A stretch of 64,000 nt of DNA from a bacterium (GTDB taxonomy: Bacteria; Bacteroidota; Ignavibacteria; SZUA-365): the NCBI GenBank assembly GCA_020444325.1, contig JAHLLD010000017.1:24689-88688 (forward strand). Reading direction: 5' to 3'. Below, one piece after another: positions 40,801 to 64,000 of the stretch. Both the position numbers and the translations under genes were made by a program. Below the pieces are notes generated by a model. The model was given only the letters and a program-made list of their open reading frames with translations, was not told where the DNA came from and made no database searches. How positions within the stretch are numbered: position 1 is the first letter of the stretch; each line of letters begins with the position of its first letter.

Positions 40801-40804
40801 GGTG

Positions 40805-40878
40805 CACTCCCGGCAGGACTCGAACCTGCGACCCTCTGCTTAGAAGGCAGATGCTCTATCCACCTGAGCTACGGGAGC
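40805..40878 (-). tRNA. tRNA-Arg (anticodon TCT)
   Basis: The minus strand folds into a full cloverleaf. The acceptor stem is GCTCCCG with CGGGAGT (one G-U pair). The D arm is AGCTCAGGTGGATAGAGC. The anticodon stem-loop has loop CTTCTAA (anticodon TCT), and the T arm contains GGTTCGAGTCC. The 74-nt length excludes CCA, which is not encoded. Its right (5') half is the source of the repeated 47-bp core that marks the cassette array to the right. Confidence 0.95.
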
Positions 40879-40993
40879 GTAATAAAATCAATGACTTAGC
40901 GAAGCCGCAGCCACTGTTCAGAAAAATATTCTGAACACTTCGCTCGTGTTTGAACTGTTCAGACTTCTGTGGAAAATACGGGATTTTCGGGTG
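40839..40993. other. Putative attachment junction A: tRNA-Arg core plus right arm
   Basis: The 47-bp core 40839-40885 spans the tRNA from anticodon loop to 5' end plus 7 bp and recurs exactly at 46909, 54472 and 60322. The 108 bp after it (40886-40993) are conserved at 54519-54626 and 60369-60476. They contain the palindrome GTTCAGAA-AAATA-TTCTGAAC (40916-40936, with overlap at the centre), then AACTGTTCAG (about 40953) and GAAAAT-ACGGG-ATTTTC. With the intact 3' tRNA half on the left, this has the form of an attL junction. The gap 40879-41082 is otherwise non-coding. Confidence 0.7.
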
Positions 40994-41024
40994 GAGACAA
41001 AGGAGAGAACCCATTCGTCTCCAC
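40991..41024 (-). terminator. Hairpin after giant T9SS gene A1
   Basis: GTGGAGAC and GTCTCCAC pair over an 18-nt loop, 59 bp beyond the A1 stop. The same hairpin lies beyond the A2 stop near 54624-54657. No strong T tract follows, so its role as a terminator is uncertain. Confidence 0.35.
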
Positions 41025-41082
41025 GCAATATCAGCCTCCCTTCTATCAGCATCTCTTTCCCCCCATCACGATGCGATTCAGC

Positions 41083-44000
41083 TCATCGCCCACCCGTAAC
41101 CGAAATCATCCGTGTCGCCTGCGCACCGTTATCAGCTATGGCTCGGAGCAGATACACACCGGTTGACAGCTGCAGCGCACCGAGGTCAAGCACCACCGGT
41201 GATGCAGTTTCTGCATATCGCGTCAGTCGCTCGCGTCCCAGCAGGTCATGCAAGGTGACGCGGCAGCTTCCGCCCGCTTCGCCGCCGATATGAACATACA
41301 ACCGCGCTCCCGCTGGAACCGGCTGCGGCCAGGCATCGAGGGTAAGTGCTCCCGGTGTGGCTGGCGACTCGATACCCGTGCTCTTGCGAATGACATACGT
41401 GATAGCCACGTGACGATCCGTCGGTGTTGCGGCGAACAGCAGATCTGCGCCATGCGCTCCTACATCGAGCAGCGTGCTGTTCGGCTGCACGGAGATCTGT
41501 GTGGACTGGCTGCCGCTTGTCGGTTGCGCATCCAGCCACCACTCTGATGGCTGTGCCGTCCATGGCATGGCGAGTCCTCCACCCGTCCACAGCTGAACCT
41601 GCTGTTCCACCGGCAGTGCACCGCCCCGTTCGGCTTCGAAGTACAGATGCAGCGGTGTGAGCACGAGCCCCGGTGGATTGTCGGGGATGATGTAGACGAT
41701 ATGCGTGCACCCGCTCTCCGTTCCCTGTTCATTGCTTTTCCAGATCCATGTGATGAGTCTCGGATCAGTATCCGCAATGTTCTGTGCCGGGGTTATCTTC
41801 CACCAGCGCGAGCAGCTTGCTCCGGGGAGAAGTGTCCCTTCCGGTGCGGGACCTCCCGGCTGATTGGCGTATTCCGGTGAAGTGAAGCTCTGCGTGCTAT
41901 CTGATCCAGCGAGGGAGAACTCCGGAGGCAGAATGATTGATGCCTCACAACCCGTAAGCGCAACCGTGCCGGTATTGGTCACGGTGTAGGACAGATGCAG
42001 TGGATTGGGGATGAAGCGTTCTTCGTGCCAGTCGGCAAACAGCGAATCGTGTCCGCCTGTCTCACATGTGATGCCGGGTTCCTCCGGCCAGGCTTCGATG
42101 TGAATCGTCGCCGTGCATTCCTTCCACTCGGTCATCTGATCGCTGCGGTAGCGGACGGTGACCTGCTGATCCTCCGCGACCGGCGCAGCCTGCGGAAGGA
42201 GTTTCCACATGAGCGAGGCAGTGGCATGGCTGTCTATTGCCGCGATGGTTTTTGATGCGGGTTCGGTTGCAGGCAGCACGAGCCTCGATGCCTGCGTGAG
42301 GTCGATAACGGCTTCGATGTTGGTCTCTTCGGTATCGAGCAGATTCTCCAGATCGAATTGCACCATTACTGTATCGGGTTCATAGTTGATCATGGCGCGA
42401 TTGAAGCACACCGTGTCTATGGCGGGCATCGAGCAGATGAGTCCGTCCATACCTTCGATGAATACGGCATGCGTGCAGACCGACACGAGGCTGTCCATCC
42501 CGGTCGACGTTCCCTTCTCATAAGCATGGACTTCGAAAACCGGTATGCGGCTCGGACGCAACGCCTGCGCGCGCAACTGCCACTGCCGCTGGAGATTACC
42601 GCCCGGTGAAAGCGCGCCGCCGGATTGCCGTGCCGCATCCAGCAATGTCACCCCGGCCGTGCCCGGAACCTGAAGTTCCACACCGCTGATCGTACGAGAC
42701 ACGCTGCCGTCGTTTCGCAACTGGCACTGAATCAGCATTTCCTGCGGCACCGGCACACCGCCCACCGTGCGCACACTGTCGGTGCCCCACAGGTCGCATG
42801 CCAGCTCCGTGCGTCGGGGATACGCCGTCAATTGGTGGGTGCAGAACTTCCACACCGTGTCCGCCGCGTGCCGGTACATCAATCGGATATCAACGGCTGT
42901 TGTATCTATCGGCATCCCCGTCGCTTCCATGCGCCACTCCGTCTCCCACTTCGCCCGCGCTGCCAGTTGTACCCATGTTTGCCGGACCGGACGGCCCGAC
43001 GCGATGCGAAGCCACGGGGCGTTCGTCCACTGCAGGGACGCTTCCAACCCTGTCACATCCGCGTCGGTGATATTCGTCAGCGCCCCGAACAGCGTGAAGT
43101 ACCGCGGCTGTGGAGCGCCGGTGCTGCTGTCGGCGGTGAGCTGAGCGAGCCCCGTAAGCGCACACGACAATCCCGGTGCCGCCTCTATAAAGACATCCGC
43201 ACCGCACGCCAGCGGCAAGCGGCCGTAGTCATCATACACATCTACATGCACATGCACCTGTCGTGACCAGGCCCGGCGATCGGCGCGCAGCAGCCAGTCC
43301 TCTTCATGCCGGGCACCCGAACCCACACCCAGCGTACGCGTGCTGTCTCCCGTCGGCTCCACGGTCACGCCCTCGCCGGTGATGCCTACGGTGGCGCGGA
43401 GCATGCCGCTGTGTTCGGTGCCGACATTCTCCAGAACCAGCCGCAGGGGCAGCAGGCGTTCCTCATTGCTCAGCGTATCCCGCATCTCCACCGTGCAGCG
43501 CAGTTCGGGCACGGGCAGACTGCCGCGTGTGATCTCCATGTCCAAGGCGCAGGCGCTATAGGAGCGCAGGCAGTTGACCGGCAGTCCCGCGATGCGATAC
43601 CACTGTTCCACCTCGATGCGCGAGAGATCGGGAAGTCCCTGTCCGGTATCCACTACCACATTCCACACGGTGGTGCTGCTGTCGCCCGGTCCTATCACTC
43701 CTGGCAGATAGCGCACCGCCCCCTGATCGGCGGAATCGAGTCGCAGCCCCGCGGGCAGAGACAGGCGCAGTTCCGTCCCGGTCGCGATGTAGCTCTCATG
43801 CGGATTGTACGTCGTCAGCCGAACGGGAAAGCGCGCCGGCACGATGCTCCGCCGCACGGTATCGATCACCACCCGCCCCGGCGCCCGCAGATCGCAACCG
43901 AGAAAGTCCTCGTCGCACAGAGGGAAGTAGTAGCGGGAGATGGGAATTCTTGAAAAAAGTGACCCCAAACTATCCGGTTCAAACCAGAAGGAATTGCATG

Positions 44001-46218
44001 GAGTGAGCAGAAAGGAGCCAAGATTGCCTGTAGCATTTAAATTATCGGCGAGAAACACGTACCCGCCAGACATGTAGGAGGGGGCTTGATCAAGTTCAAA
44101 ATTTATAAGCATCGCATCGCCCCACAGGGTCGAGAGATGCAAACCGCCATCAAGATTGAACACGGTCAGGAACAACGCGTTGTTTATCCAAACACCATCG
44201 GGGAGCAAGGTATCCCGCGATGCGGCCGAGTTCTTTAAGGGAAAATCCTCCGACCTCGTCTCTCCACCCAGTAGAATCCTCCCGCAATCGAGCATCTGCA
44301 GTTGATGGAGCATTTCCTTGTCGGATCCTCCATACAGAGTGGAGAACAGCACATCCCCGGATCGGTCGAATCGCGTGATGAAAAGCGTGCCGTCGAAACT
44401 CGAACTCAACGGATCGATTTTCACCTCCGACTGCACCGGATGCAGCAGTGGAAAATCCGCCGAGCGCGTCAGGCCCGCGACGATAGCACCTCCCGTACCA
44501 TCCGGAATGATCCGCGGTTGAAATCGGGTATGGCTGATTGTGAAGTGATTGCTGTTAAACACGAAGAAGCCAAGGCTATCATGATCTACAAGACCACACC
44601 CAACGGACGCATCCTCGCTACGTGAACCTCCCAGATAGCTGCAATATTCGATACGATCGAGATCCGTAGAAAGCCTCGTGATGAAATTATCCCGCCTGTT
44701 CATGTACAAGTGATAAGAGGGATTCGGATCGGGCACGGGGCGGACCGGTTGAAAGGCGTTGGCCGTGACCGGCAGTTCACCGAGATCGAGTTGCCCCGCC
44801 AGCAGGATGCTCCCGTCGATATCGATTGCGATGTCGGTGGTGAAGCAGCCGTAATTTCCTGGAACAAAGAACGTGCCTGCAAGCACGGTATCGCAATCGC
44901 GCCCCAGGCGAAGAATATACGATCCCCATTCATCGGTGGGCGGATACAGCGCCGAAGACAGTACATACGGGAAATGCTCATCCTTTGCCATACCCAACAG
45001 ATACAGACTGCCGTCATCTGCACGCTCGATATCCGTAAGGAAAATGAGCGATCGTCCCGTTTCCCAGCGATGGCCGAAGGTACTTCCGAAAAGCACGTGC
45101 CCCGTGCGGGAGAAGCGCCCCAGGTAGCTCGTCCACAGTGTATCGTATTCCTGCAGAGCATTCGACGATACGGGCGGATATCCACCGGAAGGTCGATGGT
45201 GTATGTAGTCGCTTTCCGTTGGCATCCAGTTGACCAGATAGAAAAACGACGTATCCGTATCGCGTGCAAGCCGTTTCCCGTGTTCGTAATTTCTGCAATC
45301 CCAAGTAGGTAGAAGCATCAGATACGTACTGAATAGTAGATCCTGACCGTCACACGTAAAACGCACGATGCAGTTAAATCTGGGGCGGTCAATCGGCAAG
45401 GAATTCTTCATTGGCAATCCTTGTCTCGCCCAGCCCGAAATCGTCATCTCTCCTGAGTCATCCGTGATCTCGGAGTGCGTTCCTTCCAGTCCGCGCACGA
45501 ACGTCGTGAACTCCGTTTCCAGGCAGTAGCCGTTGTACACCATTCCACGTTCAAGACGATACCCCACCGTATCCCCGGACCATACGAGCTGTACATCACT
45601 CATCTGCGCTTCTTCACCTATCCCGCCTCGGTTAATCGCGGTTTTCATGGCCATCTGCATGTGCGCTCCGGTCACGAGAAAACATGCAGCGGAGAGATCC
45701 GCTCCCGGCCGGTATCGGATGCGCTGCAGCAGGCGATTTTCCTTCGCTTCGTACTCGACATCGATATACGGCCAGACATCCTTGTACACTACACGGCCGT
45801 GATTCGCCACTGATTCGTACCAGCTGTCCGAATGACTGCCGAAGTAGAAATTCGACACGACCTGCAGACTGTCCATGCCCAGAACGCTACGGGGATTGCC
45901 GCCAATGAAGCTTAACGACGAGGAGCGGTCCACAAGCATCCTGCCATGCTCAATCGGGTGCATTTCTCCTCCCCCCGCTTCGTCCGGCATGGGTGCTTCG
46001 ACGTACAAGCCATTCAGCCTGAGCGAAAGCGTTTCTTTCCCGTTCAGAATACCGAAGAGGATATCCTCCTGCCATTGACCCGCGTTCACGGTGAACTGCA
46101 GCGGCACGGAGTACTGTATTCCTGCCGGTGGATCGCCGGCTAACAATGGATGCAGGAAGAATAAAAACAGGGCGAAATTCATGAGCATCATGCGAAAATG
46201 CAATGCATGAACTCTCAT
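41083..46218 (-). CDS. Giant T9SS-exported beta-propeller/repeat protein (A1)
   Basis: This surface or secreted protein has about 1711 residues. A signal peptide (MNFALFLFFLHPLLAG) leads into a DUF7948-like start (FTVNAGQWQEDILFGILN). SBBP-type beta-propeller blades follow (RIEYCSYLGGSRSED, DVLFSTLYGGSDKE). Next come four or five Ig-like repeats of about 120-130 residues marked by paired Cys (LRCTVEM, LSCALTG, LACDLWG, LICSMP, ITCETGG), then a BACON-like module (LYFEAERGGALPVEQQ) and a T9SS type A domain (LDAWPQPVPAGARLYVHI, LHDLLGRERL, STGVYLLRAIADNGAQATRMISVTGGR). I use the ATG at 46218, which gives a normal signal peptide and nearly the length of paralogue A2 (1708); the frame is open to an ATG at 46272. 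The last 340 codons are almost identical to A2, while the N-terminal two thirds diverge. It is the only gene of cassette unit 1. Confidence 0.83.
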   Translation of the reverse strand: MRVHALHFRMMLMNFALFLFFLHPLLAGDPPAGIQYSVPLQFTVNAGQWQEDILFGILNGKETLSLRLNGLYVEAPMPDEAGGGEMHPIEHGRMLVDRSSSLSFIGGNPRSVLGMDSLQVVSNFYFGSHSDSWYESVANHGRVVYKDVWPYIDVEYEAKENRLLQRIRYRPGADLSAACFLVTGAHMQMAMKTAINRGGIGEEAQMSDVQLVWSGDTVGYRLERGMVYNGYCLETEFTTFVRGLEGTHSEITDDSGEMTISGWARQGLPMKNSLPIDRPRFNCIVRFTCDGQDLLFSTYLMLLPTWDCRNYEHGKRLARDTDTSFFYLVNWMPTESDYIHHRPSGGYPPVSSNALQEYDTLWTSYLGRFSRTGHVLFGSTFGHRWETGRSLIFLTDIERADDGSLYLLGMAKDEHFPYVLSSALYPPTDEWGSYILRLGRDCDTVLAGTFFVPGNYGCFTTDIAIDIDGSILLAGQLDLGELPVTANAFQPVRPVPDPNPSYHLYMNRRDNFITRLSTDLDRIEYCSYLGGSRSEDASVGCGLVDHDSLGFFVFNSNHFTISHTRFQPRIIPDGTGGAIVAGLTRSADFPLLHPVQSEVKIDPLSSSFDGTLFITRFDRSGDVLFSTLYGGSDKEMLHQLQMLDCGRILLGGETRSEDFPLKNSAASRDTLLPDGVWINNALFLTVFNLDGGLHLSTLWGDAMLINFELDQAPSYMSGGYVFLADNLNATGNLGSFLLTPCNSFWFEPDSLGSLFSRIPISRYYFPLCDEDFLGCDLRAPGRVVIDTVRRSIVPARFPVRLTTYNPHESYIATGTELRLSLPAGLRLDSADQGAVRYLPGVIGPGDSSTTVWNVVVDTGQGLPDLSRIEVEQWYRIAGLPVNCLRSYSACALDMEITRGSLPVPELRCTVEMRDTLSNEERLLPLRLVLENVGTEHSGMLRATVGITGEGVTVEPTGDSTRTLGVGSGARHEEDWLLRADRRAWSRQVHVHVDVYDDYGRLPLACGADVFIEAAPGLSCALTGLAQLTADSSTGAPQPRYFTLFGALTNITDADVTGLEASLQWTNAPWLRIASGRPVRQTWVQLAARAKWETEWRMEATGMPIDTTAVDIRLMYRHAADTVWKFCTHQLTAYPRRTELACDLWGTDSVRTVGGVPVPQEMLIQCQLRNDGSVSRTISGVELQVPGTAGVTLLDAARQSGGALSPGGNLQRQWQLRAQALRPSRIPVFEVHAYEKGTSTGMDSLVSVCTHAVFIEGMDGLICSMPAIDTVCFNRAMINYEPDTVMVQFDLENLLDTEETNIEAVIDLTQASRLVLPATEPASKTIAAIDSHATASLMWKLLPQAAPVAEDQQVTVRYRSDQMTEWKECTATIHIEAWPEEPGITCETGGHDSLFADWHEERFIPNPLHLSYTVTNTGTVALTGCEASIILPPEFSLAGSDSTQSFTSPEYANQPGGPAPEGTLLPGASCSRWWKITPAQNIADTDPRLITWIWKSNEQGTESGCTHIVYIIPDNPPGLVLTPLHLYFEAERGGALPVEQQVQLWTGGGLAMPWTAQPSEWWLDAQPTSGSQSTQISVQPNSTLLDVGAHGADLLFAATPTDRHVAITYVIRKSTGIESPATPGALTLDAWPQPVPAGARLYVHIGGEAGGSCRVTLHDLLGRERLTRYAETASPVVLDLGALQLSTGVYLLRAIADNGAQATRMISVTGGR

Positions 46219-46764
46219 TCCTATCCGCGAAAAACGTGTTCCAGCGGCCAGTATCGAACTATCCAATCTCATAGCATGATCCTGTCTTGAATCCGTGGTT
46301 TCATCTCTCGAACAGGGTAATCCTTACGATGCAATAAAATATACCATACGGGGACACAGAACGCGCCCCCGTATGGATGTGTTGACAAAATCACTTGAGA
46401 ATGAGAAGTGATAGAATTGTGTGTGCGTGTGGCGAAAATCGTGCCACACAGGTGCGAACATTTCATTGTGTTTCCTCTCGTAACAGATATTAAATATCGT
46501 GAACAACTATCCGCATATCAGAGAGGGAATGATACGCGGTCATTTCACGGGTAGCCCTTCCTCCGGAATGAACGGCTCCCCTCGTGTACGCCCCATCGCA
46601 ACCGTATGCCTGGTCGTCGTCCGGCGCACGGGAGCGTACGTACATAATCTAATGATATATTTCACGATGTCAATATCCCTTTGATTCAGACGGATTTCCG
46701 AGACCGATCGCGGTCGACATGCATGACCTCCTTCAGCAGGAGCAACTGCTTGACCTCCCTACTG
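46219..46764. other. Non-coding gap upstream of A1
   Basis: No convincing gene is seen. CCATACGGGG (46344-46353) and CCCCGTATGG (46367-46376) form a perfect 10-bp hairpin in the probable A1 leader. The remainder is AT-richer than its neighbours and leads into the left arm of junction B. Confidence 0.5.
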
Positions 46765-46955
46765 CCACAAAATTCCATAATCTGTTCAGAATTTCCGGAA
46801 CAAATCTCCCAATAATTATTCAGAAATCATCCCCTGATTGCACGCTCAACTGTTCAGAATCCCCGTAAATCCCTGCAGGCAGATCGATTAGTTTAACTGT
46901 TCGTTCCACTTAGAAGGCAGATGCTCTATCCACCTGAGCTACGGGAGCGTAATAA
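46765..46955. other. Putative attachment junction B: left arm plus tRNA-Arg core, no right arm
   Basis: GTTCAGAATTTCCGGAAC (46784), ATTCAGAAAT (46818), ACTGTTCAGAATC (46849) and ACTGTTCGTTCC (46897) precede the exact 47-bp core 46909-46955. The right arm seen at the other three cores is absent; unrelated AT-rich sequence follows immediately. This makes B look like an attR junction: left arm, core, foreign flank. The 5' part of the arm (GCTTGACCTCCCTACTGCCACAAAATTCC) is shared with junction D. Confidence 0.65.
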
Positions 46956-47040
46956 TTCATCAATAAATATCTGCAGATTTGGTGTGGATTACAAGGATAA
47001 CCCAATCCTACGGGCATTGGTGTCCTGAATGAAATGCGGT

Positions 47041-47829
47041 TCAGATCCTACTGATCAATTCCGTCTCCACAAGGCGATGCGCTTCAACAGAATCATAATG
47101 AATACCTGGCCGTAACAGCGGTGGCAAATCACTTTGGAATCCTGCGTGTGTCATTTTCTGCGCCAGGTTCCGTGAAAACTCCCTCTGCGAGACAACCTGT
47201 CCTTCCATACTCATGTATGATTGAAAAATGTCGGCGATACGCGCAGGATCCGCAAGACCTTGCCTCAGTCCATGCCAAAGGTCAAACAGGTCACGGCCCT
47301 TTCGACGCTGAAACAACGCGCGTAATTTCGTCCCGAGCAATTCTTCGATCGTGAATGTCGGTATCGTGTTCCGCCCTTCGTACCAGCGCGAGGTCACGCT
47401 ATGAGATTGTTCCATCCACCCTTCCACCGCAGTGTGTTCACGCGTGTTGATCTCGATTTTTATCCTTATCGGCACTATGGGTGCTATTTCCGAATCCACC
47501 CTATAGATCAACTTGACATCGTTCTCCTTCTGTATTCTCCGTGGTGTACCCAACCACGGATCGAGCGTCTCGTGGATGCCGTCCATTACTTGACCGATCG
47601 GGACCGCTTGCGTTTGCACCAGATCGATATCCTCCGAATATCGCGAAGCAGGCGTCAGATACAGCTTGTGCAGCGCTGTACCTCCGCGCATGGCCAGCTG
47701 ATCCCGCAACGATGGAAGAGCGAACATATCCAGCATCGCACGCGCTATGATCAAATCCTGCTCGACCTGGGCATTGGAAACCCAAGGATGGTCAGCGCGC
47801 CATGCAATGATATCGGCAGTCGGAATCAT
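47041..47829 (-). CDS. AbiEii/AbiGii-type nucleotidyltransferase toxin
   Basis: This 262-residue protein has the polymerase-beta-like nucleotidyltransferase fold of type IV toxin AbiEii. It shows MRGGTALHKLYLTPASRYSEDIDLVQTQ (the GGTAL motif and the Asp-x-Asp of EDIDLV), then IRIKIEINTRE, TFTIEELLGTKLRALFQRRKGRDLFDLWHGL and a helical C-terminus. AbiEii enzymes modify a cellular target with nucleotides and are held in check by AbiEi. Its start overlaps the stop of the AbiEi gene by 4 bp (ATGA), the standard antitoxin-toxin order. It lies 85 bp from the tRNA fragment of junction B, at the left end of cassette unit 2. Confidence 0.87.
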   Translation of the reverse strand: MIPTADIIAWRADHPWVSNAQVEQDLIIARAMLDMFALPSLRDQLAMRGGTALHKLYLTPASRYSEDIDLVQTQAVPIGQVMDGIHETLDPWLGTPRRIQKENDVKLIYRVDSEIAPIVPIRIKIEINTREHTAVEGWMEQSHSVTSRWYEGRNTIPTFTIEELLGTKLRALFQRRKGRDLFDLWHGLRQGLADPARIADIFQSYMSMEGQVVSQREFSRNLAQKMTHAGFQSDLPPLLRPGIHYDSVEAHRLVETELISRI

Positions 47830-48620
47830 ACGTCGCTCTGCGGATCAGCGTTCACGATAACCTGCCAGCGAGGATCCTTCTTACTTCCAATCAACGGAGC
47901 TCGCACGTCCAACCGCGTCTTGGAGGGATGTTTTTCTGAAAGCCACTCTGCAAGATCGACCGTAACAGGGCGACGCTTCGTCTGCTCCAGCAACCAGCCC
48001 GCGCGCTGAACGATGCTGAGATCGGGTTCGCGATCTGCGGCATGTACCAGATCCTCTGGAATAATCTCATCAACAAGTTCATCCAGAACAGTCAGTACCG
48101 TGTCGAGCCCACCGATGTCATGCGCAAAGCGAACAAGATCCAATGCGGTCGCAGCTGCAGTTGAAACGGGGAAACTTCCAGTATAACCTTTGATGGAAGT
48201 TGTCGGCGTGTCTGTCGCACTCCGTTTCAGGAAAAAACGAACATTCATATTCACCAGTCGTATTGCACGCAGCGGGCGTGTCGTTATGATGTGGTACTCC
48301 TGCGCTTGCTGATGGCTCGCACCAAATAGTGCTGCCGCCGAAAGGATCCCCACGTAGTACTGGCACCCAAGATACTTCATCAGGTCATCCACGAACCAAT
48401 CAGGCGGTACCATACCTCCTGTCCGATACTCGATTGGGACAATCACATAAAATCCACGACGGATTTTCTGGATCCTGCCTGCGTGCTGAAGCCGTTGCAG
48501 CCCTTTCGTAAGCGCTGCACGGTTCGTCTCGATCGATCGTTCTGCTTCTTCACGGGTAAACGAATATCTCGCCCGCTGCTGCAGCTGATCCACAAATTCC
48601 GTGATCGTTTTGTGTGCCAT
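47826..48620 (-). CDS. AbiEi-type antitoxin / transcriptional regulator
   Basis: This 264-residue protein begins with a winged-helix-like domain (TITEFVDQLQQRARYSFTREEAERSIETNRAALTKGLQRLQHAGRIQKIRRGFYVIVP). The AbiEi C-terminal part follows (PPDWFVDDLMKYLGCQYYVGILSAAALFGASHQQAQEYHIIT). It should neutralise the adjacent AbiEii toxin and repress the operon. I choose the ATG at 48620: the longer open frame to 48680 would run through an inverted repeat (48642-48664) that looks like the operator. The pair is complete and appears intact. Confidence 0.87.
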   Translation of the reverse strand: MAHKTITEFVDQLQQRARYSFTREEAERSIETNRAALTKGLQRLQHAGRIQKIRRGFYVIVPIEYRTGGMVPPDWFVDDLMKYLGCQYYVGILSAAALFGASHQQAQEYHIITTRPLRAIRLVNMNVRFFLKRSATDTPTTSIKGYTGSFPVSTAAATALDLVRFAHDIGGLDTVLTVLDELVDEIIPEDLVHAADREPDLSIVQRAGWLLEQTKRRPVTVDLAEWLSEKHPSKTRLDVRAPLIGSKKDPRWQVIVNADPQSDV

Positions 48621-48641
48621 ATCTGGTTTGCAATATAACAC

Positions 48642-54715: not shown

Positions 54716-57700
54716 TCATCTCCCTCCAGTCACCGAAATCATCCGTGTCGCCTGCGCACCGTCCTCGGCAATGGCTCGGAGCAGGTACACACCGGTTGGC
54801 AGTTGCAGCGCACCGAGGTCAATCACCACAGGTGATGCAGTTTCTGCATATCGCGTCAGTCGCTGCCGTCCCAGCAGGTCGTGCAGGGTCAGGCGGCAGC
54901 TTCCGCCCGCTTCGCCGCCTATGCGGACGTACAACCGCGCACCCGCTGCAACCGGCTGTGGCCAGGCATCGAGGGTGAGCACTCCCGGTGTGGCTGGCGA
55001 CTCGATACCCGTACTCTTGCGGATGACATACGTGATAGTGACGTGACGATCCGTCGGCGTTGCGGCGAACAGCAGATCCGCGTTATGTGCTCCTACTTCG
55101 AGCATCGTGCTGTTCGGCTGCACGGAGATCTGTGTGGACTGGCTGCCGCTTGTCGGTTGCGCATCCAGCCACCACTCTGATGGCTGTGCCGTCCATGGCA
55201 TGGCGAGTCCTCCACCCGTCCACAGCTGAACCTGCTGTTCCACCGGCAGTGCACCGCCCCGTTCGGCTTCGAAGTACAGATGCAGCGGTGTGAGCACGAG
55301 CCCCGGTGGATTGTCGGGGATGATGTAGACGATATGCGTGCACCCGCTCTCCGTTCCCTGTTCATTGCTTTTCCAGATCCATGTAGCAAGTCTCGGATCA
55401 ATATCCGCAATGTTCTTTGCCGGTGTAATCTTCCACCAGCGCGAGCAGCTTGCTCCGGGGAGCAGTGTCCCGTCCGGTACGGGACCTCCCGGCTGATTGG
55501 CGTATTCCGGTGAGGTAAAGCTTTGCGTGCCGTCTGAGCCAGCGAGGGAGAACTCCGGTGGCAGAATGATCGATGCCTCACATCCCGTGAGCGTAACCGT
55601 GCCGGTATTGGTCACGGTGTAGGATACATGCAGTGGATCGGGAATGAAGCGTTCTTCGTACCAGTCGGCAAACAGCGAATCGTGTCCGCCTGTCTCACAC
55701 GTGATGCCGGGCTCCTCCGGCCAGGCTTCGATGTGAATGATCACGCTGCACTGTTTCCACGCGGCCTGCTCATCGGAGCGGTAGCGCACGATGATTTCCT
55801 GATCTTCGGCCGTGGATGCAGGCTGCGGGATGAGAAGCCAGGTGAGATTCGCGGTGGAGTGACTCTCCATGACGGCAATGGTTTTGCTCGCGGTCTCTGA
55901 CGGATCGAGCGTCAAACGCGGCGACTGCGTGAGATTTATGATTGCTTCGATGTTGGTGTGGATTTCGTCGAGGACGTTGCGAAGGTCCAGTCGCAGATTC
56001 AGCGGAGATGGCTGGTAACCCGGCGGAGTTCGCACGAAGCGCACGGTATCCTCTGCCGTCAGCGTGCATCGCAGTCCGTCAATCGCCGGGATGTTGAGCA
56101 TGTGCATGCAGGTCGAGAGAACACTGTCCTGCAGGTCGCGCGCCTCCACCGTCAGCACCGCCGATCGTGCGGATTGCAGTGCCTTTGCCTGCACACGCCA
56201 CGTTCTGTTTGCCTCCGTGCCCGGAGCAAGCGTTCCCCCTGCCACGCTGAGCGGGTCGTGGGCGAGTAGTCCTTCAGGCGGCGCGAGGGACAGCACATAG
56301 CGTCCCACCTCCAGCGTTTCATTGCCGGTATTGCGCAGACGATAATCCAGCGTGAACGGGGATGGAAGCAGCAGACTGTCATCCACGTTGAGCACTGCCG
56401 GGGCAGTGATCGAACAGACCGACGATTGGATGACGGGAATAAGCTGTATGCGTATCTCACAGCTCCTCCGTGTGGAATCCTCCTGATACCAGTACCAGAC
56501 AGTGATCGTCTCCGTGCTGCTATCCTGCGGCGCGGGATCCACTGCGAGCTGCCACAATGACGTACGTATGGCCGAGGCCGCGGTCGGTCCCAGGTAATGA
56601 CGTGCCGTCTCCCCTGAGGACAATCTCAGATGCGGCGCCTGTGAGAGATCGACCTCGGCTTCAACGCGCCGCACGAGCGTATCGACGACGTTCTCGAGTT
56701 GCAGCTCCATGGCAAAATCTTCGAATCCCATGTCTGAGACCGGATACAGCGCATCCGGTGCGCTCAGGCTGCAGCGCAGCGCAGGAATGCCCGGCACATG
56801 CACCGTCGCGAGACAGGCAACGGGAAGCTGGCCGATCTCATCGCGCACGACGACCTCGAAGGTGACTTCACGATCGAAACCGCGCCGGTCGACATGCGCG
56901 ATCCACTGACTCTGCACCTCCGCATTCGGCTGCAGTCGATCGAGGTAGTGAATATGATCTCCCTCGGGAAGCAGTGACACTCCTGCCGTGCCCGGCTCGC
57001 CATCCACGCGCACCTGCAACGCAACCTCGCCTGGGAGAACAGCTTCCTCACCGAGATTGCGCAATGTGAGCGTGACGGGAATCGTATCGCTCACATAGCG
57101 TTCGCCGGTCGCATCGATCATGAGTAACATCGGCGCATCGAGATCGCAGGAGAGTTCCATGCGCTTGCTGTCCCTGCGCGCGTAGACGATCTCCGCCCTG
57201 CAGCCGCCGTGGGACTGCAGGCAATTGTCCAAATGATCCGCCCAGCGGTAATGGGTGACAACCGTGATGGGCAGCAGCGTATCAGCAATAAGGTCCGGTC
57301 GCACCTGCAGAACCCACTGCGCATACGCAGTATCACCCGGAGCGAGCATGGGTGCCGCATAGAGCAGCAGCGGCATCGTATCCGGAACAAGGACAAACCC
57401 CGGCGGAAGCCGCAGCTCCGCCTGCAGATCGAACACCGCGCGTGTCGGATCCGGGTTTGTGATCGTCACGTCGAGTGGTATGAACGAGTCACTCAGATAC
57501 CCGCGCGTACTGTCGCGCCGGATCGTATCCGGCACCGTAAACGCACAACTGATCGCATCCTCCCCGCAGAGTGGCAGGTACTGCCGGGTGAGTATGGCGT
57601 CGTAAGGACTGGGGCCAGGAGAGGCGAGTGCGGGTTGAAGCGCGTTGTAGGTGCGCATGAACGCCCAGTCGTCGCGATAATCCCATTCTGAAGATGTTGT

Positions 57701-59842
57701 CGCGAACTGATGATGAAATGCTGGGGGAGCGCCGACAAGATGACCGGAAGGATCGTAGCGCTGGGACAGCACCACGAACTCCGGGTACCAGGATGAAAAC
57801 AGCATGTTTCCATCGCGGTCGAACGATGCCAGGATATTGACATCGCATCTGTTGACCCCTTGCACACGTCTGTCCCAGGGCATGCCGCCCACCTCCTGAA
57901 AATCCACTGTCCTGCTCAGCCCGGTCACGAGACAATTCCCGCATGGGAGGATCTCCAGATTCAGCGCCCACTCATCACCCCCGCACGCACTCTCGGTCAG
58001 GCCGCCGAACGTCTTGACCATTGTCGGCTGCCCGTCGCGATCGAACCGGGCGAGCAGCATGTCCATCGCCCCCCGTGTGTTTCTCGGCGCGTTTCCCGGC
58101 ACCTCGCGCATCGAGCTCGACAGTGTGGTTCCGGTTACCCATATCCCATCATCCGCGTCGACCGCCAGGCAGTGATTCGTTGATGCACCGAAAGCCCCGT
58201 CCAGAATTCGCCAGCTCCGATGCAGGGTCGGCCCTCCCCCCCACCGGCAGTACCATTTCCCCGCGCCGGCCAGATACTCATCGCTCTCCCCGCCGAGAAA
58301 CGTCGCCCAGAGCACCGAGTCCATCCCCGGGGTCAACCGGGCGATATACAGGTCGATCATTCCTGCGTGCTGCGGCTGCCAGGCGTTTCGCGTCACCGGT
58401 GCCCGGTTTGTGACCCCGGCGATCACTACACTGCCGTCACTGAGTTCGTCCATCGAAACAACGTGGAGACTGTCGCCCAGAAAGTCGAGGTTCACGCCGA
58501 TCAGCACCGAATCGCAGCGCGCATTGAGTTTCACCAGCATCCCGCCGCTCTCATCCAACGGCTGTTTGGTATAATGCAGGAACGGTTGCGGCACGACTCC
58601 ATTCTGTTGGAAACCGCTGAGCAGAACTCCGCCGTCGCGCGCGCGGAGCACCCGCGTCGACAGGATTCCTGAGATGTAGGTACTGATAGTGAGATGCCCG
58701 TCTCGCGTTAGCTTGCCGAGCCATGTAGATTTCTCTCCGCTGCCCGGTCGCCCGTCGATAAGCGGTGGACGAAGTGGGAGGGCACATGTGGGATGTTCGC
58801 TCAGAGACTTGTCGTCATCCATCTGCGCCGTCTGGAGAAAATAACCGCTGGTATCGTCCACGAAGATCTGGATTGTATTTCGAATGAGCCCATCAGCCCT
58901 TGCATGACCGATCAGATTCGTGCAGAACCGAAGCGAGCGTCCGTCACAGGAGAATTCGGCAAAAAAGTTCTCCTGGATACTGTTGAAAGCACATGTACTG
59001 TCCTGCGGTGGTATGAACCCCGGTTTTGCATCGTACGAAACCAATCCGTAGCCATAAAGCAACACGGAACCACCGGGCATAACGTCGCATGCGAGCGATG
59101 TCTGACCGTGCGGGTCTCCAAAGAACGTGTTGAATTCCGTTTCCAGGACTATCGCGTCATGCAGGATTCCGGGCAGGAATGAAAACGAGACGACGTTCCC
59201 CTGCTGAAGCACCACCGGATCCGTCCCGGATCGCGGTGAATCCCCCAGCACGCGAGTACGGCGATAGTCTTCCGCAGTGCCTGGTGTCACCTCGAATTTG
59301 ACATCGGCCGGATCCGCACCGGGCCGCAATATGGTGCGCTGGATCAGTTTGTCTCCTTCCGAGACATAGACGACATCACACCCGGGCCAGACGTTTTCAT
59401 ACACAACCTGCTTGAATGTTGCAACGTTCTCCGTTGCCCCTTCACGCGACAGCCCATAGTAGAAATGCATCAGTGATTCGGTACGTTCACCCCCAACCAC
59501 CTCCATCGAAGGTCCCGACTGCACAAATCGCATGTATTCGCGATTGCGTGCGATGCCGACAGTTTCTTGCTCAGGCATCCGACGGGGACGACTATCCGGA
59601 AAGCTGATATCGATGCCATCGCCGCGCAGCGATACGCGGCTCGCCTGGTGCAATACCGCATAGCGAACCGAGGAATCCCATTGTCCGTCGTTGCGCGTGA
59701 ACAGGACGGGGAAAGTTACTGGAATCCGCTCCGCATTCTGAGACTGGGCCGGGGAAGTAATTGGGACAGAAATAAATACTATAAAAAAAATGCACGCAAG
59801 AATCGGGAGACTCCCGAGCGAGAGAATGATGCGAAGGTTCAT
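54716..59842 (-). CDS. Giant T9SS-exported beta-propeller/repeat protein (A2)
   Basis: This 1708-residue paralogue of A1 has a signal peptide (PILACIFFIVFISVPITSPAQ). The DUF7948-like start FPVLFTRNDGQWDSSVRYAV leads to SBBP-type blades (VLWATFLGGESDEYLAG). Cys-marked Ig-like repeats follow (LSCDLDAPM, LRCSLSAPD, CSITAPAVL, LRCTLTAEDT, ITCETGG), with a BACON-like module and a T9SS type A domain ending MISVTGGR. From EAWPEEPGITCETGG to the stop, about 340 codons, it is nearly identical to A1; upstream the two are only distantly alike. AAGAGG precedes the ATG. It is the only gene in cassette unit 3 and is framed by junctions C and D. The function is likely adhesion or surface display, inferred from domains. 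Confidence 0.85.
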   Translation of the reverse strand: MNLRIILSLGSLPILACIFFIVFISVPITSPAQSQNAERIPVTFPVLFTRNDGQWDSSVRYAVLHQASRVSLRGDGIDISFPDSRPRRMPEQETVGIARNREYMRFVQSGPSMEVVGGERTESLMHFYYGLSREGATENVATFKQVVYENVWPGCDVVYVSEGDKLIQRTILRPGADPADVKFEVTPGTAEDYRRTRVLGDSPRSGTDPVVLQQGNVVSFSFLPGILHDAIVLETEFNTFFGDPHGQTSLACDVMPGGSVLLYGYGLVSYDAKPGFIPPQDSTCAFNSIQENFFAEFSCDGRSLRFCTNLIGHARADGLIRNTIQIFVDDTSGYFLQTAQMDDDKSLSEHPTCALPLRPPLIDGRPGSGEKSTWLGKLTRDGHLTISTYISGILSTRVLRARDGGVLLSGFQQNGVVPQPFLHYTKQPLDESGGMLVKLNARCDSVLIGVNLDFLGDSLHVVSMDELSDGSVVIAGVTNRAPVTRNAWQPQHAGMIDLYIARLTPGMDSVLWATFLGGESDEYLAGAGKWYCRWGGGPTLHRSWRILDGAFGASTNHCLAVDADDGIWVTGTTLSSSMREVPGNAPRNTRGAMDMLLARFDRDGQPTMVKTFGGLTESACGGDEWALNLEILPCGNCLVTGLSRTVDFQEVGGMPWDRRVQGVNRCDVNILASFDRDGNMLFSSWYPEFVVLSQRYDPSGHLVGAPPAFHHQFATTSSEWDYRDDWAFMRTYNALQPALASPGPSPYDAILTRQYLPLCGEDAISCAFTVPDTIRRDSTRGYLSDSFIPLDVTITNPDPTRAVFDLQAELRLPPGFVLVPDTMPLLLYAAPMLAPGDTAYAQWVLQVRPDLIADTLLPITVVTHYRWADHLDNCLQSHGGCRAEIVYARRDSKRMELSCDLDAPMLLMIDATGERYVSDTIPVTLTLRNLGEEAVLPGEVALQVRVDGEPGTAGVSLLPEGDHIHYLDRLQPNAEVQSQWIAHVDRRGFDREVTFEVVVRDEIGQLPVACLATVHVPGIPALRCSLSAPDALYPVSDMGFEDFAMELQLENVVDTLVRRVEAEVDLSQAPHLRLSSGETARHYLGPTAASAIRTSLWQLAVDPAPQDSSTETITVWYWYQEDSTRRSCEIRIQLIPVIQSSVCSITAPAVLNVDDSLLLPSPFTLDYRLRNTGNETLEVGRYVLSLAPPEGLLAHDPLSVAGGTLAPGTEANRTWRVQAKALQSARSAVLTVEARDLQDSVLSTCMHMLNIPAIDGLRCTLTAEDTVRFVRTPPGYQPSPLNLRLDLRNVLDEIHTNIEAIINLTQSPRLTLDPSETASKTIAVMESHSTANLTWLLIPQPASTAEDQEIIVRYRSDEQAAWKQCSVIIHIEAWPEEPGITCETGGHDSLFADWYEERFIPDPLHVSYTVTNTGTVTLTGCEASIILPPEFSLAGSDGTQSFTSPEYANQPGGPVPDGTLLPGASCSRWWKITPAKNIADIDPRLATWIWKSNEQGTESGCTHIVYIIPDNPPGLVLTPLHLYFEAERGGALPVEQQVQLWTGGGLAMPWTAQPSEWWLDAQPTSGSQSTQISVQPNSTMLEVGAHNADLLFAATPTDRHVTITYVIRKSTGIESPATPGVLTLDAWPQPVAAGARLYVRIGGEAGGSCRLTLHDLLGRQRLTRYAETASPVVIDLGALQLPTGVYLLRAIAEDGAQATRMISVTGGR

Positions 59843-60164: not shown

Positions 60165-60476
60165 GACCTCCCTATTGCCACAAAATTCCATGATCTGTGC
60201 AGAATTTCCGGAACAAATCTCCCAGAATTTGTTCAGAAATCAGGCTCGAATTGAGTGCTCAACTGTTCAGAATCGCCGTAAATCCCTGCAGGCAGATCGA
60301 TTAGTTTAACTGTTCGTTCCACTTAGAAGGCAGATGCTCTATCCACCTGAGCTACGGGAGCGTAATAAAATCAATGACTTAGCGAAGCCGCAGCCACTGT
60401 TCAGAAAAATATTCTGAACACTTCGCTCGTGTTTGAACTGTTCAGACTTCCGTGGAAAATACGGGATTTTCGGGTG
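60165..60476. other. Putative attachment junction D: left arm, tRNA-Arg core and right arm
   Basis: The left arm includes GCAGAATTTCCGGAAC (60199), TTGTTCAGAAATC, ACTGTTCAGAATC and ACTGTTCGTTCC. The exact core is 60322-60368 and the 108-bp right arm 60369-60476, with the palindrome at 60399-60419. After CGGGTG (60476) the sequence differs completely from units 1 and 3, which fixes the right border of the conserved arm. Confidence 0.7.
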
Positions 60477-60526: not shown

Positions 60527-60991
60527 TCAGATATCAGTCTGTGCATCCCTGATCGCTTCGAGGGCTTCGACGTCGGCCAGATCCCTTGTCCTTCCTGTGG
60601 ACCGTTTATTCGTAATCAAGTCTTCAACAGGAGGAACGTGCACGTCGATCCCATCGACATTCACGACAGTCGAGCGAGCGTACACTTCGTTGAATTCAAG
60701 GCCGGTTACCGATGTTAGAATGTCAATGCGCCGGGGGGCAATACCGATCTGGAAGACGGTCCCTTCTTCTTCGAAATCGCGGTGTGTGACCTCGTGCAGC
60801 GGTGCTCCAAAACGTTGAAGCGCAGTGAGCACCGCCTCTGCGTTCTGCGGGGATGGCATGACCCAGAGGTCAATATCCATCGTTGCACGCAGGTAACCGT
60901 GTACTGCAAGAGCATAGGCGCCGACGAGAAGGAATTCAACCTTCTCTTCGGACAAGATGCGTAACATGTCTCTGTAGTCTTCGTTCAGCAT
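60527..60991 (-). CDS. Nucleotidyltransferase (AbiEii/MNT-like)
   Basis: This 154-residue protein has a minimal nucleotidyltransferase core: VEFLLVGAYALAVHGYLRATMDIDLWV, with the G-x-x-A-L motif and the DIDL aspartates, followed by RRIDILTSV carrying a third acidic residue and VPPVEDLITNKRSTGRTRDLADVEAL. Such proteins, about 150-200 residues long, occur as toxins or antitoxins beside a small helical partner. Here the partner gene overlaps its start by 56 bp. It sits about 50 bp after junction D, in the same place within unit 4 as AbiEii holds in unit 2. Confidence 0.82.
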   Translation of the reverse strand: MLNEDYRDMLRILSEEKVEFLLVGAYALAVHGYLRATMDIDLWVMPSPQNAEAVLTALQRFGAPLHEVTHRDFEEEGTVFQIGIAPRRIDILTSVTGLEFNEVYARSTVVNVDGIDVHVPPVEDLITNKRSTGRTRDLADVEALEAIRDAQTDI

Positions 60992-61133
60992 CGAAGTCCT
61001 TGTTCAGAGATGCGAGTTCCAGCGTGAGCAGCCAGACCTGGTTGATACGCTCTTCCGCTGTGCCGCGTACGCGATCCTCGGGAGGGCTGTCTGACAGGCG
61101 TGACAATCTGGTACGTTTCCGATCCATGAACAT
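60936..61133 (-). CDS. Small helical partner of the nucleotidyltransferase
   Basis: This protein of about 65 residues is charged and helical (DRKRTRLSRLSDSPPEDRVRGTAEERINQVWLLTLELASLNKDFDAERRLQRHVTHLVRREG). It resembles the short proteins often encoded just before nucleotidyltransferases of this type (pattern PPEERV...W.LTLE..SL...DAE.RLQRHV). GGAG lies about 9 bp before the ATG at 61133; an alternative start is the Met at 61127. It overlaps the next gene by 56 bp. A toxin-antitoxin pairing is inferred from layout. Confidence 0.6.
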   Translation of the reverse strand: MFMDRKRTRLSRLSDSPPEDRVRGTAEERINQVWLLTLELASLNKDFDAERRLQRHVTHLVRREG

Positions 61134-61242
61134 AATGTACATCTCCGTTGACACAACGGCAATAACGATGGGCATCACCCTCGACTGCATCGTCTACCAG
61201 GACGTCCACGACCGCAACTGCCGGATCCGTGATCAGAGCGAT

Positions 61243-63216
61243 TCACAGACGCAGCAGATGCTTTACAAAAATACGATCACCGATGGAGATGACAGCCGTG
61301 TAGCTCCCCGGCAGCACAGTGGAAACATCAAGGCTCTCGGAGATGCTTCCGTCAGCGCGTACCGTGACCGCCTTCTCCGTGACAAGCGTGCCGTCGGAGG
61401 CATACAGTCTGAGTCTGCCTCGTGCTGCGCTGCGGATGCTCTGCAGCTGTCCGGTGAGCTGCACCTGTTGCGATGCGGGCTGCGGAAAGAGACTCACGAT
61501 ATCACGTCTGCGAAGCAGAGGATTGCAGATGCCGTCCACGTACACTCGCGAGAAAAGGGAATCGGCATCCTCGCAGCAGCGGGCGTACGCGGTGAGTTTC
61601 GGCACGGTCACGTGGTCGCGAAGCACATCCCTGGTGATCGGCGTACGGAAGCGCAGCACCATGCAGGGGGTCCCACTCGGATTCACTGGCACGCCCTCCA
61701 CCAGCAGTATCCCCTGCTCCGACAGTTCGGTGCGGAAATCCCACCCGGCATCGCTCGAAACGACGTCACTGAATACGAGTACACTGCTGTCATAACGCAC
61801 TTCGCCGCGCAGCTGCGACGGCTGTCCGCCGAAGAATTCCCAGCACACGTTCACGTCCAACTCCTCTCCGCTCGGCGCGATTACAACCGTGTCGATATGC
61901 GCGATGAGCGTCTCCTCGCACTGACAGATTTCCATCACGAATCCGTCCTGCGTCACCGTGTTGGGGCACCCGCTCGTGAGCGTTAAACTGTCGATCTGGA
62001 TATGCACCACACGACTGCTTGCCGCTGCAAGGGCACGCATGGAGATGCCGACGAGGTGTCCGGTCTCAAGTCCGGGATAGACGTATTCGGCACGGAAGCG
62101 GTATGTGCCCGGCCGCAGCTCGATGAGTTGGACAGCGGTGTTCTGCGTGATGGTTCCAAGCGTAACCGGCGTAAGCGCCGTGTGTTCGAGCAGCTCCGGA
62201 TCGGTACGCAGGAGGAACTCGAATGAGAGCGGGAGTTCTCGCGGGACGCGGGGTTCGAGATCCACGTAAACAATACCGCGCTGGCCGGGAGTGAGACGCG
62301 CAGGACCGGACACGCGCAGGTGCAGCTGATCCGGACGCCAGGGCGATGTGAACAACGTATCCGCCTCAGCCACTTCCCCTCGATACTGGGCAGTGACATG
62401 CAGGGCACGAAGACTATCCGTGCAGTTCGTTTCCCAGGTGATCACGCAGTTCTGTGTGAGTATCTCCTCGCCTATCTCGCGCAGCAGTGCTGCGAGCTGC
62501 GCCGGAGCGTAGACGCGCTGATAATAGCCGCCTGATCGCCGCGCCACGTCCTCCATGACTCCCTGGCTCATCATGTTGCTGCCGTACCCGATCATGAACA
62601 GTGTGATGTTCTGCACCAGGATCGCATCCGCCACATCTTCAGGCCGTTCCGACGAACCATTGTCCACTCCATCGGTAAACACCAGCAGAAATTTTCTCGC
62701 AGCGGGATGTGCGGCGAGATCCTGCAGGGCGATGCTCATGGTGTGATAGATGGGCGTATTGGCTCCAAGCGAGAGATTACCGATCGCTGTTTCCAGTGAT
62801 GGGATATCCCCGGTGAAATCAATCACGCGCTCCCCGCCATTCGAAAAGTGATAGATGGCGGCTTCGTCTCCGAGACCGAGCATGCGCACAACGGAGAGGG
62901 CACCCGTTTTCAGGCTGTCGAAATCCACTCCCGTCATCGAACCGGAGTTATCCAGCACCAGCGCCACCGCCGTGCCTGTCGCCGTGTCGGGACACCAGAT
63001 ATCAGCGGGGATGGACTGTCCGTTCTCGATCACGGAGAGCGAGAGTCCCTGCGTCGACAGTAGCTGCGCACCGTTCCACCGCACCGCCGCCTCCATTTTC
63101 ATGCGTGGGAGCCGTGAGGCATCGATGGATTCTATCGATACGCTCAGGGGCTGGGCGACAGCAGGGATGGCTACCAGTAGAAGCATCACGGACGCTATTG
63201 CCGTTTGGAGTCTCAT
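61243..63216 (-). CDS. VWA-domain T9SS protein V2
   Basis: This 657-residue protein is nearly identical to V1 but complete. It has a signal peptide (AIASVMLLLVAIPAVAQ) and a VWA domain with MIDAS motif DNSGSM at residues 89-94 and FTDGVDNGS. Beta-rich modules include CQCEETLIAHIDT, LDVNVCWEFFGGQPSQLRGEVRYDSSVLVF (cohesin-like) and TPITRDVLRDHVTV. A T9SS type A end follows (VSLFPQPASQQVQLTGQL, LRLYASDGTLVTEKAVTV, VLPGSYTAVISIGDRIFVKHLLRL). It starts with ATG at 63216, overlapping the stop of S2 by 4 bp (ATGA). A VWA domain suggests metal-dependent protein binding at the surface. Co-translation with an Asp-box propeller in both units suggests that the two act together. Confidence 0.85.
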   Translation of the reverse strand: MRLQTAIASVMLLLVAIPAVAQPLSVSIESIDASRLPRMKMEAAVRWNGAQLLSTQGLSLSVIENGQSIPADIWCPDTATGTAVALVLDNSGSMTGVDFDSLKTGALSVVRMLGLGDEAAIYHFSNGGERVIDFTGDIPSLETAIGNLSLGANTPIYHTMSIALQDLAAHPAARKFLLVFTDGVDNGSSERPEDVADAILVQNITLFMIGYGSNMMSQGVMEDVARRSGGYYQRVYAPAQLAALLREIGEEILTQNCVITWETNCTDSLRALHVTAQYRGEVAEADTLFTSPWRPDQLHLRVSGPARLTPGQRGIVYVDLEPRVPRELPLSFEFLLRTDPELLEHTALTPVTLGTITQNTAVQLIELRPGTYRFRAEYVYPGLETGHLVGISMRALAAASSRVVHIQIDSLTLTSGCPNTVTQDGFVMEICQCEETLIAHIDTVVIAPSGEELDVNVCWEFFGGQPSQLRGEVRYDSSVLVFSDVVSSDAGWDFRTELSEQGILLVEGVPVNPSGTPCMVLRFRTPITRDVLRDHVTVPKLTAYARCCEDADSLFSRVYVDGICNPLLRRRDIVSLFPQPASQQVQLTGQLQSIRSAARGRLRLYASDGTLVTEKAVTVRADGSISESLDVSTVLPGSYTAVISIGDRIFVKHLLRL

Positions 63217-64000
63217 TTCACCATTACCTTCGTGTTTGCAACGCCGCTTCCCGTCACCAAGCGCAGCATGTACACCCCGCGCTCGAGTCCGATGGTGGAC
63301 CATTGCACGGTTCGCCGGGTGACAGTGACCTCAGCATCCAACACCACCGCCCTCCTACGGCCAAGGAGATCATAGAGCTCGATGCGGACGGGTCCCGGCC
63401 GGGTGCATTCGAGCTCGGTATTCATCATCCCACCCTGCGACACCGGCTGTGGCCAAGTGGAGAGGATGCGTGGGGATTGCGGCAAGGACGGTGTGACGTT
63501 CGTCCAGTTGATGCCGCCGTTGGTGGTTTTAAGGATGGAGAATTGAGTTGTTACCCATGCGACGTCATAGTTATCTGAATAGATCCCGTAACCAGCATAA
63601 CCGTAGAGCTCACCCTCAACTGAGTAGGTTCTCCATTCGTCCGTCGATGATATAAAAAACTTATTCCCCAAGGAGCCCAATCCGAAACTGTTACCTGTTT
63701 GATCGATATTACCGATCATCATACCGTACTGGATCACATCTATAGAATCCCAGTGCGCACCGGCATCCGTACTTTTCAGCAATTTCCACCGCTGTGAATC
63801 TCTCTCCTGGTAATGCAGAAATACTGCCCCCTCGCCAGTGAGGATAATACCTTGCGCATCCAGTGTCTTAGGTGCCTCGACAACACTGCGCCAGGACATA
63901 CCCCCATCGTTACTGACTGCTATCTTGCTTTTGGTAATTGCGTAACAATCTGGATACCCTGATATATCAATGGCCCCGCGGCCGATCATTTCCAGACTCA
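63213..64000 (-). CDS. Asp-box propeller protein with T9SS domain (S2), N-terminal part outside the window
   Basis: The frame is open to the right edge, giving the last 262 or so residues. It carries Asp-box units (VSNDGGMSWRSV, STDAGAHWDSI, TTNGGINWTNV) and the same T9SS type A end as S1 (STWPQPVSQGGMMNTELEC, LYDLLGRRRAVV, LERGVYMLRLVTGSGVANTKVMVK). The last 90 residues are almost the same as in S1, while the blades before them differ at many positions. It is coupled to V2 by a 4-bp overlap. Confidence 0.82.
   Translation of the reverse strand, partial: SLEMIGRGAIDISGYPDCYAITKSKIAVSNDGGMSWRSVVEAPKTLDAQGIILTGEGAVFLHYQERDSQRWKLLKSTDAGAHWDSIDVIQYGMMIGNIDQTGNSFGLGSLGNKFFISSTDEWRTYSVEGELYGYAGYGIYSDNYDVAWVTTQFSILKTTNGGINWTNVTPSLPQSPRILSTWPQPVSQGGMMNTELECTRPGPVRIELYDLLGRRRAVVLDAEVTVTRRTVQWSTIGLERGVYMLRLVTGSGVANTKVMVK

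Follow-up and report, generated by a model that had tools for sequence, protein, structure and literature searches.

How does half of a transfer RNA (tRNA) gene come to be repeated four times along a bacterial contig, each copy set between the same flanking sequences and separated from the next by several kilobases of protein-coding DNA, with no recombinase gene among them? This question is raised by a 64,000-nucleotide stretch of DNA, referred to below as the window, which forms the end part of contig C17 in a genome of the Bacteroidota/Ignavibacteria lineage (G000; 25 contigs, 4.65 Mb). The initial annotation had described the last 23 kb of the window as a tandem array of secretion cassettes, accreted at a tRNA-Arg gene by a recombinase acting in trans. 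We followed up this proposal in 100 genomes, including G000. The explanation that we consider probable is an array in series, made up of at least four units without an integrase gene, which are bounded by the 5' half of tRNA-Arg(UCU) and by shared arms and were likely inserted one by one and site-specifically at the anticodon loop by a trans-acting tyrosine integrase no longer encoded in G000.

Architecture of the array

The attachment gene, tRNA-Arg(TCT), was identified by ARAGORN and Rfam at 40804..40878 on the minus strand. G000 contains one full-length identical copy, and the next best match outside the array junctions reaches 89% over 57 bases. As annotated initially, an exact 47-bp segment of this gene recurs in a single orientation, at 40839..40885 (core A), 46909..46955 (core B), 54472..54518 (core C) and 60322..60368 (core D), all on the plus strand. 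The core comprises the first 40 bases of the tRNA, that is, its 5' half through the anticodon, together with 7 upstream bases, and the full-length gene includes only the copy at 40839. The spacings of 6070, 7563, 5850 and more than 3678 bp define four units, which fill the last 23 kb of the window.

Conserved flanking arms had been described at the outset. They are present on the left side of cores B, C and D and on the right side of cores A, C and D. The right arms (plus strand) are 108 bp long, lie 3' of their cores and share 95-99% ungapped identity: that of unit 1, directly upstream of the tRNA (40886..40993), is 96-99% identical to right arms C and D; that of unit 3 (54519..54626) is 95-96% identical to right arms A and D; and that of unit 4 (60369..60476) is 99% identical to right arm A and 97% identical, over 111 bp, to its counterpart in the related genome G001. 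The left arms (plus strand), of about 128 bp, lie 5' of their cores and are 89-98% identical to one another. They are located at 46781..46908 (unit 1; 89% to left arms C and D), 54344..54471 (unit 2; 98% to left arm D) and 60194..60321 (unit 3; 98% to left arm C and 92% to G006). The motif ACTGTTCAGA is present in 9 copies in the window, every one within an arm, against an expectation of 0.08. Given this excess, and because the core is the sole 47-mer with four copies in the window, chance repetition could be ruled out. Similarly, a dispersed genomic repeat was rejected as the source of the right-arm tail, since all 4 matches to its pattern in G000 adjoin a core.

In 8 of 8 left-arm/core junctions (B, C and D in the window, those on contigs C24 and C4 of G000, and those in G001, G006 and G011), the two sequences break at one identical base of the anticodon stem-loop. 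Tyrosine integrases commonly use the anticodon stem-loop as a subsite.

Occupied and empty sites in related genomes

Arm matches of at least 100 bp were present, among the matches listed, in G000, G001, G006 and G011. The initial annotation had proposed to look for the presence or absence of single units in relatives, and both states were found. G001, from the same genus, carries one complete unit at this tRNA on a single contig, with the cores 6543 bp apart and with the order right arm, nucleotidyltransferase, VWA, Asp-box, small open reading frame (ORF), left arm, core. In G002, also from the same genus, the site is empty, and the tRNA is followed by an arm-free native flank and, about 0.9 kb on, by the right-flank gene. 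When one genome per species was scanned for the left-arm/core join, three records were retrieved, QKAF01000086.1, JAGTUZ010000036.1 and CAJXVM010000003.1, which correspond to G006, G011 and G001, respectively, and are, by their titles, all metagenome assemblies; G006 and G011 belong to genera other than that of G000. The two genomes also contain contig pairs resembling an empty and an occupied site (L050/L051, 253 bp, 98.8%; L052/L053, 113 bp, 99.1%). However, a unit with its own native flank, as at junction B (see below), looks alike, and these pairs were therefore not counted as proof. Two contigs of G003 (L057/L058) overlap by 46 bp exactly at the core, which may be a mere assembly break. 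At the counterpart locus of G011, the tRNA-Arg gene (L053 10980-11054) is of the CCT rather than the TCT type, and the core next to the left arm (L052) is of the TCT type.

Divergence at fourfold sites separates the units from the chromosome around them. Between G000 and G001, the divergence is 0.203 for the VWA gene of unit 4, 0.174 for that of unit 2 and 0.173 for the nucleotidyltransferase gene, whereas it amounts to 0.436-0.551 for four chromosomal genes to the left of the tRNA. Arm-free VWA relatives in G003 (0.581 from unit 4) and G004 (0.472) are as diverged as the chromosome, so the low divergence belongs to the unit and not to the gene family. Thus, the units have moved laterally. Between G000 and G011, an AbiEi gene fragment differs by 0.333 (48 sites) and two well-aligned chromosomal genes by 0.535 and 0.544; values of 0.600 and 0.680 were obtained for two poorly aligned G011 genes (about 35% protein identity) that are probably not true counterparts. 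The left arm and core match G006 at 92% over 213 bp and G011 at 93% over 107 bp, and long chromosomal matches to these genomes are at about 69-72%. The search of relatives for core and arms, likewise suggested at the outset, hence supports lateral movement.

Linear DNA, acquired by natural transformation or general transduction, could in principle have produced the same distribution if it recombined homologously at the tRNA and the conserved ends, with the core providing shared homology only. The conserved ends and divergent middles of the units are compatible with such a process, as is the native chromosomal DNA found at junction B and beside the left arms of G006 and G011. However, the low divergence of the units does not extend to the chromosomal genes on the left of the tRNA, and the exchanged tracts would thus need to stop near the unit border every time. 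Taken together with the eight junctions that break at the same base, this makes the explanation improbable in our view.

No carrier of the units emerged from the searches. Pattern scans of viral contigs yielded no match. A plasmid carrier was rejected: the matches, in 11 records, cover at most 17% of the query and are confined to the core, and were therefore read as tRNA genes of other bacteria. The arms were also compared with VWA/Asp-box pairs at other loci of the family (L109-L127), where no match was better than one of 19 nt (E 0.023).

Candidate recombinases

The initial annotation had placed the recombinase in trans. The units read are indeed devoid of integrase genes, with no PF00589 match on C17 or C24; the acting enzyme itself is inferred. 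G000 has 4 PF00589 matches, none of them on C17. By reading of their sequences, these appear to be a XerD-like protein, a XerC-like protein, a third homolog in which the usual catalytic residues are missing, and a phage-type integrase of 370 aa. The last is encoded at another locus (C1:427k) with no core match or repeated arm words nearby, and for this reason is not favoured as the enzyme. G006 and G011 have three PF00589 matches each, read as XerD-like, XerC-like and degenerate. The third XerC/D-like protein (L087 5357-6283; C16:143k in G006; C278 in G011) lacks the usual HxxR histidine and the tyrosine and is possibly a non-catalytic relative. Serine recombinases (PF00239) were detected in 1 of 7 genomes searched, the arm-free G002, and not in G000.

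The chromosomal Xer recombinases, or another integrase resident in G000, might also act on the cores. Consistent with this, G006 and G011 possess left arms together with the Xer-type set of PF00589 proteins described above, and G000 encodes the 370-aa integrase. However, the core is tRNA sequence, which we take to be unlike dif (no dif search was made), and the G011 assembly is only 88% complete, so that an integrase may be missing from it. We regard this explanation as very unlikely.

A tyrosine recombinase gene beyond the window, or elsewhere with the same arms, had been named as something to look for. In G010, from a sister genus, a PF00589 tyrosine integrase gene begins about 250 bp from the same tRNA, which fits action in trans. 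The gene is broken: an in-frame stop occurs early, and the tail has been replaced. Three 452-aa relatives in a protein collection (P0002-P0004; 81-87% identity) do not have this break. Upstream of the G010 tRNA, the unit right arm is matched at 19 of the first 30 positions, a score reached by 8 of 200000 shuffles, and ten other arm-free or distal flanks match at no more than 7 of 30 positions. Furthermore, TTTGTTCC is present in 4 and 2 copies in the G010 arms and once in each of three left arms in the window. C-terminal remnants of the same integrase family, 54 aa in G000 (L127 5054-5215) and 38 aa in G001 (L155 ~7006-7119), are found at a shared locus away from the tRNA. A phage carrier, sought by scanning viral contigs with the G010 integrase, was rejected: six stretches matched, and none of them encodes a relative. 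On contig C29 of G001 (L090 4420-6454), an integrase-family ORF lies about 1.1 kb from a tRNA-Arg(CCT) gene and is probably part of another mobile element at another tRNA.

Gene content and relationships of the units

All recognised genes of the units are on the minus strand, pointing at the tRNA, and the unit types alternate, in agreement with the initial description. Units 1 and 3 each encode a giant DUF7948 protein, of 1729 aa in unit 1 (41083..46272; PF25778), with a weak type IX secretion system (T9SS) tail, and of 1708 aa in unit 3 (54716..59842). The two proteins are 40% identical, and the 3' ends of the genes are about 93% identical in DNA. Unit 2 encodes an AbiEii-type nucleotidyltransferase toxin (47041..47829; PF08843, PADLOC PDLC02294), an AbiEi-type antitoxin (47826..48680; PF09407, PADLOC PDLC02266; 85% nucleotide identity over 397 bp to G011), a VWA protein (49022..50917; PF00092), an Asp-box (BNR) protein with a T9SS tail (50827..53115; PF02012/PF15902) and a 179-aa ORF of no family (53191..53730), in the place of which G001 has a 155-aa ORF. 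Unit 4 encodes a 154-aa nucleotidyltransferase (60527..60991; DUF6036/DUF2204/AbiEii-like), found at the same place in G001, a VWA protein (61243..63303; PF00092; 91.5% amino acid identity to G001) and the C-terminal part of an Asp-box protein cut by the contig end (63213..64000). Units 2 and 4 and contig C24 each have a different gene in the nucleotidyltransferase slot at the tRNA-side end, and these toxin genes may help to retain the array. On contig C9 (L147 6406-9727), a lone 758-aa Asp-box gene, whose 3' end is 82-85% identical to the array genes, has diverged right-arm-tail pieces on either side.

The designation of the units as T9SS secretion cassettes applies in part. In a scan of the unit proteins other than the VWA protein of unit 2 and the truncated Asp-box product of unit 4, the tail model TIGR04183 scored above its curated cut-off for the Asp-box protein of unit 2 and below it for both giants. 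Surface-protein genes are carried as proposed, and other cargo occurs too: in G006, the DNA adjoining the left arm was read by eye as encoding an alcohol dehydrogenase, a DUF362-type protein and an aldo-keto reductase.

Unit 2 appears not to be a single unit. In G011, which belongs to another genus, AbiEi is the gene directly inside a left arm, which implies that AbiE can stand as a unit by itself; a search of G011 for AbiEii, at the missing end of that unit, gave no match. On C24, a 45-bp left-arm remnant (L010 1150-1194) is located upstream of a second AbiEi gene. Unit 2 contains neither such a remnant nor a right arm before the VWA gene, and to judge from these sequences looks like a compound of two fused units. 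Its tRNA-side end, junction B, had been described as attR-like. In place of a right arm, it carries DNA resembling the tRNA upstream region of arm-free relatives (46956..47000, end approximate; plus strand), which aligns with the tRNA-Arg flank in G002, G003, G006 and others. On one reading, chromosomal DNA next to the tRNA may have been captured between two cores and turned into a unit.

Related junctions were found beyond the window on contigs C24 and C4 of G000. C24 (5026 bp) encodes a second AbiE pair, an Asp-box protein and a shortened VWA protein, and its core carries two changes; the junction (L010 3130-3195) consists of a full right arm and about 19 bp of left arm and adjoins an oppositely oriented gene with HYR-like domains. 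The sequences of C17 and C24 stop within the Asp-box gene at one identical base, which probably reflects an assembly break at a repeat. The end of C4 carries a left arm, a native-like flank and a core whose 40-nt tRNA half has three changes. A 354-aa gene on C4 has relatives on the same side of the tRNA in G001, G002 and G003 and on the opposite side in G009. C4 is probably the chromosomal far end of the array, although its join to the array is inferred.

The relationships among the units indicate a more complex history than insertion alone. The shared ends are 92.7% identical between units 1 and 3 and 92.8% between units 2 and 4. Within the giant genes, identity drops sharply from about 90-96%, over the 1.25 kb nearest to the core, to about 50% further on, implying that homologous exchange or unequal replacement also acted. 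Together with the alternation of unit types, these intragenic borders suggest that homologous exchange or duplication also shaped the array. Might duplication account for all of it? One or two units could have arrived long ago, and the array could then have grown within the lineage by tandem duplication and gene conversion, with no more site-specific insertion. The alternating types, with their nearly equal identities at the shared ends and divergent middles, and the 98% identity of left arms C and D are in line with this possibility. However, divergence within G000 is 0.134 between units 2 and 4 and 0.164 between the shared ends of units 1 and 3, barely below the 0.17-0.20 found between two species; the protein sequences of the giants agree to only about 40% in their middles; and units 2 and 4 carry different nucleotidyltransferase genes. 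We therefore consider growth by duplication alone unlikely.

Discussion

The best reading of these sequences is that the units are cassettes resembling cis-mobilizable elements (CIMEs), which would have been accreted by a trans-acting integrase and then reshuffled by homologous exchange. A unit would circularise through its core, the integrase would pair core with core, and insertion would leave one core in the rebuilt tRNA gene and another at the far side. Because the repeat is the 5' half of the tRNA, the unit nearest to the gene replaces the tRNA's own upstream region, and its right arm would have to supply the tRNA promoter. A scan of the right arm with the sigma-70 consensus, in which Bacteroidota promoters are not represented, found no such promoter. 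The mosaic genes were probably created by later homologous exchange between units. Site-specific insertion and homologous exchange jointly explain more than either process alone.

Several observations weigh against stepwise insertion by a lost integrase. No right arm accompanies core B. Nor is the array closed, since contig C17 terminates at base 64000 of the window and the array runs beyond it. The regular alternation of units 1/3 and 2/4 with similar divergence fits an old two-unit duplication, and the 370-aa phage-type integrase kept by G000 remains a candidate enzyme. Moreover, the own arms of the G010 integrase are unlike the unit arms except in the first bases and in TTTGTTCC, and an arm-free flank in G011 also matches the unit right arm, at 16 of 30 positions. 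Given this mixed evidence, the assignment of a G010-type enzyme to the units is an informed guess.

In the part of the literature consulted, the closest known kinds of array are the ssrA islands of Dehalococcoides and the streptococcal CIMEs; a literature search retrieved no publication whose title or abstract start describes the present one. In Dehalococcoides, many ssrA islands are stacked in tandem on the same side of a tRNA-like gene and delimited by short direct repeats of it; 15 of 31 have no integration module and are proposed to be cis-mobilizable, and cargo is common to strains. The target is tmRNA, the repeat is its 3' end, and a serine recombinase module is carried by the remaining 16 of 31 (PMC3146451). 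The two systems share the tandem arrangement on one side of a gene, repeats of that gene, module-free members and shared cargo. They differ in the repeat, which here is the 5' half of a tRNA, in the absence of a recombinase from the units read, and in that no serine recombinase was found in G000.

Streptococcal CIMEs retain attachment (att) sites, have no recombination genes, carry cargo, measure 1.2-13 kb and occur in tandem, with the most decayed elements farthest from the target gene; they were detected only in tandem with an integrative and conjugative element (ICE) or an integrative and mobilizable element (IME), two or three elements in total (PMC7563491). In the units described here, att-like sites are likewise kept, with cores and arms at every border apart from the one right arm missing at B, and neither PF00589 on C17 and C24 nor PF00239 in G000 was detected. 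The Pfam matches of the scanned unit proteins include no relaxase or type IV secretion system name, and no ICE or IME gene remnants were recognised in the units, the decayed integrase tails being at another locus. Unlike those CIMEs, at least four integrase-free units stand together here, with no conjugation genes recognised and with a tRNA as the target.

In the Islander database of tRNA-targeted islands, the crossover is centred on the anticodon in 2083 of 3919 islands, the rarer 5' fragment is seen in 159 of 3919, and tandems with three or more members number 4; an integrase gene is required in each island (PMC4383910). Like the islands it describes, the present units are bounded by direct repeats of a piece of a tRNA gene, with the boundary in the anticodon stem-loop, and the tRNA gene and its cognate fragments flank them in the same orientation. 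The integrase gene inside the island is absent. The array is set apart by the lack of a recombinase gene in any unit seen, by the 5'-half repeat and by its small cargo of surface-protein and toxin-antitoxin genes.

Integron arrays offer a further comparison. They consist of recombinase-free cassettes of few genes, inserted in one orientation at a fixed site, with toxin-antitoxin genes among them. In contrast to integrons, the cores here are tRNA sequence and the units are 6-8 kb long. No integron integrase was found at the array, as 0 of 4 PF00589 matches in G000 lie on C17, the far side of the array not being closed. A tentative possibility, which we put forward as speculation, is that the locus is an integron-like tRNA platform. 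The tRNA-Arg anticodon loop would be a fixed port; the recombinase-free cassettes would each bring a new tRNA upstream region; a family-wide integrase would act occasionally in trans; and the stack would store and swap surface proteins and toxin-antitoxin genes across genera.

Accretion at a tRNA gene has left a stack in which every cassette that can be read is free of integrase genes, and related genomes display different fill levels of the same site: none, one and at least four. The spread and persistence of cassettes without a recombinase of their own thereby become directly testable, and are linked to surface-protein diversity in a little-studied lineage of the Bacteroidota/Ignavibacteria.

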